Shown one piece after another: positions 42,854-45,983 of a stretch of DNA of 64,000 bases. Source of the DNA: Lophium mytilinum (Eukaryota > Ascomycota > Dothideomycetes > Mytilinidiales > Mytilinidiaceae); assembly GCA_010093605.1 (NCBI GenBank), contig MU004192.1:1696584-1760583 (forward strand). The letters run 5' to 3'. The position numbers and the translations under genes were made by a program. Within the stretch, counting starts at the first letter, position 1, and every line of letters begins with the position of its first letter. Below the pieces are notes generated by a model. It saw only the letters and a program-made list of their open reading frames with translations, was not told where the DNA came from and made no database searches.

Positions 42854-45800
42854 CTAATGTAAGGCAAAGCTGCCCTCTCTTATCTTCTTACCATCTAACT
42901 TCATAGCTTCACCATGCATAAGATTGTGAATGTATGCCTCGCCAATCACCTTGTACGATCCACCATCAGTACTAGGGCGCAGAACATAGGGTACCCGACC
43001 CCCATCAAGAACACAGATAATATCCCCAGGAGCCGCACCCCCAGGAACGAGCCCGAGCCTACCATCGGCAGTACAGCAGAACCGTCTGAACTGCGCCCAG
43101 CGGATGATAGCCGGCTCGTGGTAATTTCGTAGTCGAGACGTTGCCCACGCAGGATCTTTGAATTCGAGGAACCCATCGAGTGGGACATAGTTCCGCCATC
43201 CGTAGTCAGGGATGCGAAATCCTAGCTGAGTGGAAGCAACGGTGAAAGCATACAGCCACTTTCTTTTGAGTGGCTTCCCGCTAGCATCCAGGCCGCAAGA
43301 TAGGGTAGGCCACCATATCCGGAAGACTTCGAAAGGTAGATCGCCTGTGCCCTGAGTGGTAATCATCAAGGTCTCCCTGAGCCAGTCATGGATGCGTGTG
43401 TAGGACGAGCCGGCCGAATCTGGTCGCCCGCTCGAATTTGAATTGTAATAAGGTACCATCGCGAAGTTCGCTACGGAACCTACATCACTTATTTTGTCCA
43501 CCTGCCGGCCATGGACGCGGAGTTCAGAGTTGTTGTCTTCAAGAGAAACACGAGGCCATTTCCGCGTGCTCGAGACTCCTCGAACTGTTGATACGAAAGC
43601 CGAGCTATCCGCGTGGAACACGTCTCGTTGCTTCAGCCGAGCTGTGAGCCCTTCGGTCCATGAGGCTTCGCTAGCGGCGCTCGGTAGGTTAGGCATGACT
43701 GGCAGAGGGTCGGCCTTGTTAGGTCTAGCTAAATCGGGGACCCAAGATGGTAGTGATAGAGTAGGTGGCATCAGCGGGTCAGGTGTGAGTGCGAGAACCT
43801 GCAGATCGTGTCGTTTGGTAATGCTCCAGAGAGCAAACTGCTTGTAGACGTCTTCAATAGGACGCGAGTAGTCGGGCCTTACCTCCCAATCGGTCGACTC
43901 GACATCTTTCGCCATGCCGACGAGTGCGAAGACCTTGTCCCTCGGATCGGAGCACTCGAAACCCCTAGTCAATAATACAAGGTCGAGTAAAGTGTGGCCG
44001 CTTGTTTTGCTTTGATGTTTGGACCTCATCAGATGCATAGTCAATAGGTTTGTTCGCGCAATTAGGGTGTCTGCCGGCGGCGGCCCCAGTTCATATGTTT
44101 CTTTCGCATATTGATGCGGTATGATGGGCCAGAGGAAATCGACGACGCCTTTGAAAACGTTCCAAGAGAGCTCCGATTTACCGCACATTACGACCGCGCT
44201 TCGAGCACTCGCTAGCTCCTGGGTGACCCATATGCGCCGGAACCAAGAGTGACGAAGCAGCTCTGCGATTGGCTCTGTCCGTATTTTCCCGGAAATCAAG
44301 GGCGTCGAAGACTCGGGCATTTCGCGATCGATGGTAGGTTGTTCAACAAACGTCTTCTCGAAAAAGCTGTGAAAGTCTGCGTCCCAATCTTCCCAGTCCT
44401 CTACGTTAGACAGATATCCCAACTCTCGAGCCTCGTCTACCCAGCGAGCCATCTGATTTGGATACTCGGCACAAATTGCACGGATCATCTTGAAAGCCCC
44501 ACGATTGGCGTCTGTTTCTTTGCCTAGCCAGATCAAAACACGTTGCGCTGTAGAGTAAACCTCTCCTATCTGCTGTACTTGATGGGTTCGTTCTTTGATA
44601 TCGGCTTGATTGATACAGAGCGCATCAGCCCAGACTACACGCTCTTGATCCGGAAGTCTCAGGCCCTCCAGCGCCTCGTGAAGATTGATCCCAATATCGA
44701 CCTCCGAGTCCCCGCAGATGATCTCTCTCTGTCGGAGACTGTCTCCCCAAACGTAGGATAGTGCCTCGAACTGCGGATTGTCGGCTAATTCCACATGTCG
44801 TAGATCACAGAAAATCTTCTCGTCGTCTTTCCCGGGCTTGACAACGAGCACGCGGATTTCGCGTGGGACGAGTGGTTCGTATTGGGGCGGTCTTCGTGGC
44901 TTGCGAGCTTCCTGCCATTCATGAAGTCTCAAGCCGACGGTGTTCCTGAAAGCGAGAGAAGCGATATAGAAGACTATGGCAACTGGAATACCAAGCATGA
45001 TCCACTTGATCAGGAGGCCAATTTTGGTGCGCGGTTTCCGTGTGGAGGACGAGTATCTGCTGTACGTTGTGTCTACTTTTCCTCCTCTTATGTCTTTCTC
45101 TAATCGCTCGATGGCCCTTTCAATTAAGGATGCCATTTCGGGGATCCTGAAGTGCTCTCCTATCAGCTCGCCCATACCTGGGTGTAGTATCATAATGTCT
45201 TTCGTTTCGGTCTCAATCTTGAGCTTCCAGCGACCCGTGCGGAGTCTTTGATCAGCACCGGAGGACGAACCGTCTTGATGGATAAGATCGGCGCCGTATA
45301 TCTTGTCCAGGTCCGCAGATGGCGAAGGTATAATAGCATCCTTCTTAAGAAGTAACTCGAGGTGGCGGGATCCATTATATGCTACACACATCAGTCCCAA
45401 CAGGGTCAGTTGAAGAAAGCAGCATACCTCGCCAATGCGACCATGCCCTGAATGCTAAGTAAAAAAGAGGGAAATTAGGTATTCTTAATAAATTAGTGGT
45501 AGGCGTAGAAAAATGCTGTGTGCTCACTCACATTGGCACCAACGCAAAAGGCACCGCAAAAGGCAGACCAGCATAACTCCAAAACATCCGATCCGAATGC
45601 TTCAACTGGCCCTGCAGCGCGAACCGCTCCAATGTCTCCTTTACTTTCTCCTCGGTCATGAACCGTGCTGGAAATAACACCTCGACATCCGTGACCTTCC
45701 CATCCACAACATTCGTGCGTAGTTTCTTGCTCAAAGGTGGGATACTCTTCAAACCCCATTCTTGATACGGGATCCGTTTCAGAAGCTGGTTACCTATGGT

Positions 45801-45983
45801 TGTTGATTTCTTCTTCCAACCGCCGGGCTTTTTTTCCCAAGCAACCCATGTCTGCCGCGCCTGGGCTTCTACGCGTTCCACGAAGCGGTCAAAGAGGGAA
45901 TAATGACTAGAACTGGGTTTGGAAATATGCTGGCAGTAGATGAGAGAGTGACGGGCGGAGATTGGAAGGAGAAAAATGCGCAT
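42854..45983 (-). CDS. Fusion: mitochondrial K+/H+-exchange-related protein + HET domain
   Basis: Three exons on the minus strand (45983-45532, 45483-45428, 45381-42854) join in phase to 1011 aa. Residues 1 to about 270 match the mitochondrial K+-H+ exchange-related family: start MRIFLLPISARHSLIYCQ, KRIPYQEWGLKSIPPL, then AFRAWSHWRA built from the small middle exon, SRHLELLLKK, and the closing FRIPEMASLIERAIERLEK. The two introns (48 and 46 nt) lie inside this conserved part, so the joins are secure. Without a stop, the same exon continues into a membrane segment (about 292-314, KWIMLGIPVAIVFYIASLAF) and then a HET domain starting FEALSYVWGD (374-383) and VWADALCINQ (419-428), with a long C-terminal part. 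HET proteins trigger incompatibility cell death. I know of no such fusion; a merged gene model is the alternative, but the final exon is one uninterrupted frame. Confidence 0.82.

Follow-up and report, generated by a model that had tools for sequence, protein, structure and literature searches.

The window analysed here is a 64,000-nucleotide stretch of the Lophium mytilinum genome (assembly GCA_010093605.1, contig MU004192.1, hereafter C12). Its minus strand carries, from position 45983 to 42854, a gene of three exons that splice in frame to a product of 1011 aa (Table 1). A Pfam scan of this product up to E 1 found Mit_KHE1 and HET alone, with neither a NACHT or NB-ARC domain nor repeats of the kind that mark a fungal NLR, and an NCBIfam search returned no matches at E up to 0.1. 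Specifically, the N-terminal part matches the mitochondrial K+-H+ exchange family Mit_KHE1 (PF10173; KHE hereafter) at 195.4 bits (E 1.4e-57; profile positions 1-188 of 188), and the C-terminal part matches HET (PF06985) at 104.1 bits (E 1.1e-29; profile positions 1-146 of 146), the curated Pfam cut-off being 22.5 bits for both. Exon 3 is a single open frame that runs across the end of KHE, a linker and the HET protein. That KHE and HET are encoded as one gene is strongly established by the DNA itself, and the gene is presumably expressed as a single protein.

Table 1. Features of the fusion gene, in window coordinates.
Feature	Position	Strand	Description
Exon 1	45532..45983	-	452 nt; start codon and about the first half of KHE; aa 1 to ~151
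Intron 1	45484..45531	-	48 nt; GTGAGT...TTAAG, with CTAAT as branch site; position and phase shared with the C1 gene
Exon 2	45428..45483	-	56 nt; PNFPLFYLAFRAWSHWR
Intron 2	45382..45427	-	46 nt; GTATGC...TGTAG, with CTGAC as branch site; position and phase shared with the C1 gene
Exon 3	42854..45381	-	Final third or so of KHE, then the linker containing the membrane segment, then the entire HET protein; stop 42856-42854
Mit_KHE1 (PF10173) match	45347..45980	-	aa 2-181, spanning both introns; Pfam
Membrane segment in linker	44948..45025	-	About aa 289-314; Kyte-Doolittle, 19-residue window, peak mean hydropathy 2.24
Sole in-frame ATG between KHE end and HET domain	44996..44998	-	Inside the membrane segment; MLGIPVAIVF...
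HET (PF06985) match	44216..44770	-	aa 374-558; FEALSYVWGD, VWADALCINQ, WFRRIWVTQE; Pfam
LPSWVPD motif behind HET	43733..43753	-	aa 713-719

A PRISE-like reductase gene lies just upstream, with 206 bp between its stop and the KHE start, and a P450 flanks the fusion gene on the other side, with ankyrin and aminotransferase genes further away. The locus is about 80 kb from the end of C12. The last 300 bases of that contig (1824292-1824591) are very AT-rich, show no telomere repeat by eye and might be as left by repeat-induced point mutation.

We take PF10173 to be the family of yeast YDL183C. Passages of two papers list YDL183C within the yeast mitochondrial K+/H+ exchange system (PMC9105532, PMC3744574). 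A profile search of the 43.18-Mb, 24-contig genome placed Mit_KHE1 matches at three places, which amount to two genes. The second gene, at C1:3620314-3621393, is unfused, encodes 324 aa and scores 215.8 bits against the 195.4 bits of the fused half. The two proteins align from Met1 (MRIFLLPIS in the fusion, MRLFLLPIS in the C1 copy) to about aa 269 of the fusion (about position 45083), beyond the end of the Pfam match, and this 41% identity, N-terminus included, indicates that the KHE half is intact and not decayed. The conserved KHE end reads FRIPEMASLIERAIERLEK in the fusion and FKLPEMEIEIERAVEQVET in the unfused copy; the charged tail of about 50 aa that follows it in the C1 protein is missing from the fusion, which has the membrane segment and HET instead. 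Both genes carry introns at the identical two places, in phases 2 then 1, and share a 56-nt exon 2. These shared places and phases imply that the fused half is a DNA-level duplicate and not a retrocopy, and the existence of a second, unfused gene with matching introns suggests that the front half of the fusion stems from a gene duplication, its tail having been replaced. Judged by comparison with this one unfused member, the front half is KHE-derived and not a plain member of the Mit_KHE1 family. With an alignment of both KHE proteins as query, 28 pattern matches in bacterial and archaeal contigs and 25 in viral contigs yielded no confirmed relatives, counts that concern those collections and say nothing about fungi.

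Much of this architecture had been anticipated in a preliminary description of the locus. Its three exons in phase and 1011 aa agree with our model in both coordinates and length; the full KHE protein that it placed in the first ~270 residues, with a conserved C-terminal block, is borne out by the match to the whole profile and by similarity to aa 269; and the membrane segment and HET domain that it assigned to the same uninterrupted exon indeed lie in the one open frame of exon 3, with the HET motifs intact. It had also raised the possibility of a second, unfused KHE-type gene as a check, and the C1 gene is such a gene. Its interpretation, a HET module tethered to mitochondria or a mitochondrial protein used as the sensed part, is supported in part: the sequence bears out the in-frame fusion and the unfused gene, a mitochondrial location is plausible, and a sensing role may apply.

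In the HET half, the blocks ALSYxWG (aa 374), WxDALCINQ (aa 419) and W..R.WV.QE (aa 549) are intact; these are the conserved HET blocks, and they are also present in other HETs of the genome. Regarding the motif behind the domain, passages of PMC10890737 mention a PSWIPRW-type motif with TOL and PIN-C. The genome holds at least 152 HET matches, a lower bound, as for large families generally, in which some matches may be pieces of one gene. By summed bits, the top relative of the HET half within the genome is C2:1162279-1164040 (+), at about 263 bits; it is collinear over most of the HET half, 43% identical in the best piece and 28% and 33% identical in two long pieces. The best single-piece match is C15:1169676-1170998 (147 bits, 33%). 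In a first tree, the fusion HET and the C2 HET fell in a group of four with support 87/65; a second tree again gave a four-member group, its membership partly different, with support 89/94, and the two HETs as a pair received 74/12. The trees thus hint weakly at kinship between the two HETs. A single-sequence structure model of residues 337-600 had a mean pLDDT of 33.8 and was discarded, and a PDB sequence search gave no matches at E up to 1.

Part of the 152 matches was surveyed for what precedes the HET domain. A motif pattern picked out 55 distinct HET frames in loci L001-L008 and L012-L081; 27 of 82 loci, including the three KHE loci as well as the contig end, added no new frame by that pattern. 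A membrane segment of at least 1.8 stands ahead of HET in three of the 55 frames (the fusion, C2 and C16:1484374), a count that covers same-frame extensions only, so that a partner lying across an intron would have escaped notice. At its N-terminus the C2 protein is rich in arginine and serine, 8 of the first 60 residues being basic and 2 acidic, and a membrane segment comes next; by eye this gives a hint of a mitochondrial presequence plus anchor. The net charge of +6 is the fourth highest among the 47 HET N-termini listed, and the helix moment of 0.42 is ordinary. The C16:1484374 (+) protein opens directly with a membrane anchor, MDFLWALLSLCIFLASSAVL. When 13 other HET N-termini were compared with Pfam, the sole partner above cut-off was a protein kinase on C15: at C15:644778-646949 (-), Pkinase (125 bits) lies ahead of HET in one 1318-aa open frame, and the best-scoring kinases elsewhere in the genome are 37-38% identical to it. 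A further HET frame, at C13:1572273-1572617 (-), has an N-terminal PAM2-like motif (E 0.0075; 16.3 bits, under the Pfam cut-off of 20), PAM2 being a docking motif for poly(A)-binding protein.

How might such a protein work? Passages of several papers report that HET domains alone are sufficient for cell death (PMC10197012, PMC12881547), that their mode of action is unknown and that they are distant kin of TIR domains (PMC10197012, PMC12881547, PMC10890737). As the best explanation, to which we give an even chance as a whole, we propose a cell-death effector of the HET type that the KHE copy targets to the mitochondrial inner membrane and anchors there. Under this scenario, a duplicate of the nuclear KHE gene would have lost its own charged tail and acquired a membrane segment with a complete HET protein in its place; the KHE half would direct import to the mitochondrial inner membrane, serving as address and anchor and perhaps as sensor too; and the HET half, fired by some cue, would trigger regulated cell death from the mitochondrion. 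A mitochondrial location can reasonably be inferred from the KHE family and from the intact N-terminus common to the unfused copy, and a death function of the HET half in the fusion would follow from what is reported of HET domains generally. The topology can be sketched in the same conditional terms. If the hydrophobic region of KHE (~aa 133-165, by eye) crosses the membrane twice, both KHE ends would lie in the matrix. A basic stretch (TRKPRT) precedes the linker membrane segment, and the charge, estimated by eye, is about +5 just before the segment and about +1 over the 15 residues beyond it; the charge rule would keep the basic stretch on the matrix side and leave the HET half facing the intermembrane space. 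This last placement is soft, because further basic residues follow a little later after the linker segment.

A more ambitious version of the tether can be put forward tentatively, with the balance of probability well against it. In that version the protein would be an immune receptor in the mitochondrial inner membrane, the ion-exchange duplicate acting as both anchor and sensor of disturbances in the mitochondrion and firing the TIR-related HET inside the organelle, and it would belong to a broader class of mitochondria-targeted HETs that has so far gone unrecognised, with C2:1162279-1164040 as a possible member. A mitochondrial virus, a plasmid or an incompatible mitochondrion after cell fusion could, for instance, provide the cue.

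Among the rival explanations, the one that survives best, though we consider it unlikely, is an integrated decoy or guard: the duplicated KHE half would be chiefly a bait or reporter of attack on mitochondrial ion exchange, the attacker being envisaged as a mitochondrial virus, a plasmid or a bacterial effector, and its disturbance would fire the HET half. The persistence of the donor gene, unfused, on C1 is what the decoy idea requires, and the kinase fused ahead of another HET in the same genome is also in its favour, as is a proposal, in passages of a study of Sordariales, that fungal NLRs with a built-in CHK-2-like kinase carry it as a decoy (PMC12258605). A search of the L. mytilinum genome with the mitovirus polymerase family gave no matches, and the control likewise matched nowhere, so that this search is uninformative. 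Against the decoy, we know of no attacker or ligand for KHE. The plain tether requires fewer unseen parts, which is why we place it ahead of the decoy.

At the junction between the halves, the linker spans 66-67 codons, from the KHE end (aa 269) to the YEPL block with which the HET protein begins (aa 337). Its 66 codons from aa 270 to aa 335 contain no in-frame stop, as did 266 of 5,000 shuffles, and its in-frame coding score of 4.9 was reached by nine of 5,000 shuffles. One reverse frame of the linker scores 4.3 and the first 19 codons are slightly negative (-0.7), so that codon bias of the linker alone is weak evidence. The similarity of the linker to the N-terminus of the C2 HET relative is not significant (656 of 2,000 shuffles score as high), and against the tail of the unfused copy its raw, unshuffled score of 21 gives no sign of relation. 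Introns at the junction were sought among GT...AG pairs of 42-129 nt starting from 45250 to 44600, by our rough scoring; to pass, a pair needed a donor score of 0.3 or more, a pyrimidine ahead of AG and no fewer than four of the five branch letters. None of the pairs scanned had all five branch letters. The best candidate (45177-45100; 78 nt, donor 2.4, branch 4/5) would keep the frame but excise the conserved KHE end, and it was rejected.

These results bear on a distinctly unlikely rival, in which two products overlap at the locus: alternative processing would give a KHE-only protein, and the ATG at 44998 would start a separate, membrane-anchored HET protein. That ATG has A at -3, and the protein starting there would be a HET with an N-terminal membrane anchor, like C16:1484374. 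It leaves room for an extra, separate HET product, yet it gives KHE no stop, and an unspliced KHE-only product would have no in-frame stop; the HET promoter, for its part, would need to sit within conserved KHE coding sequence. Splicing of a 46-nt GT...AG stretch that overlies the membrane segment would bring KHE to a stop. With a donor of 0.8 and a branch of 3/5, this stretch compares poorly with introns 1 and 2, which have donors of 3.0-3.5 and a branch site of 5/5 letters each by the same rough scoring, and we rejected it as an intron.

Very unlikely, in our estimate, is a chance chimera, that is, a harmless or silent rearrangement with no selected function as a fusion. According to passages of PMC10890737, HET varies more in copy number across the taxa compared there than any other Pfam domain, and a position about 80 kb from a contig end would suit such an origin. 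Nonetheless, the reading frame stays open for about 1000 codons through both halves, with in-frame coding bias, and no stop or frameshift has arisen in the KHE half, although that half, sharing 41% identity with the C1 copy, is no recent duplicate. An assembly or base-calling artefact that joined two neighbours through a lost stop or a frame shift is barely credible, since, although a single assembly lies behind the sequence, the frame holds on either side of the linker where the other two forward frames have stops, no KHE-like tail was seen continuing in those two frames, and the contig is long (1.82 Mb) in an assembly of 24 contigs.

Passages of PMC10197012 and PMC10890737 state that the killing mode of HET and the roles of most HET proteins are open. 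A HET joined to a protein of a mitochondrial family offers a concrete place to look for HET action, and the fusion is a testable case of a duplicated housekeeping gene built into a death switch. Searches of open-access literature yielded no report of HET with K+-H+ exchange, of Mit_KHE1/PF10173, or of HET with mitochondrial targeting, and the preliminary description likewise knew of no account of such a fusion. The fusion appears new among HET proteins; annotations of other fungi may already include this domain arrangement.

The fusion shares with the Mit_KHE1 family the whole-profile match, the N-terminal start, the C-terminal PEM...IERA block and the intron places of the unfused copy, and departs from it in having a membrane segment and a ~675-aa HET protein in place of the charged tail. 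With HET proteins outside NLRs (such as TOL, PIN-C, HET-6 and BH) it has in common the full HET profile, the motif blocks and LPSWVPD behind them. In HET-D/E/R and BH, as far as the excerpted sources describe them, HET is N-terminal, whereas here it begins at aa 374, after a mitochondrial protein. Fungal NLRs that carry a CHK-2-like kinase, the proposed decoys in passages of PMC12258605, likewise have a duplicated housekeeping gene fused to an immune-type protein while the original is kept. By contrast with those NLRs, the fusion has no nucleotide-binding domain, and its added part is a mitochondrial membrane protein in front, where theirs is a kinase at the back.

The closest parallel in how the protein might work is animal SARM1, a resemblance of mode of action and not of membership. 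According to passages of PMC12165793, SARM1 is a TIR NADase with an N-terminal mitochondrial targeting sequence and is found in part in the intermembrane space; the role of its mitochondrial pool is there called unclear, and SARM1 is able to act without its mitochondrial sequence, which implies that a mitochondrial address need not be essential. In both proteins a TIR-related death domain would stand downstream of a mitochondrial address. SARM1 uses a short targeting stretch and the fusion a whole membrane protein; SARM1 is a TIR NADase, whereas the excerpted texts of PMC10197012 and PMC10890737 do not establish that HET has NADase activity. If the mitochondrial reading is true, the fusion would be a fungal parallel to SARM1 and would tie regulated cell death in fungi to the mitochondrion.
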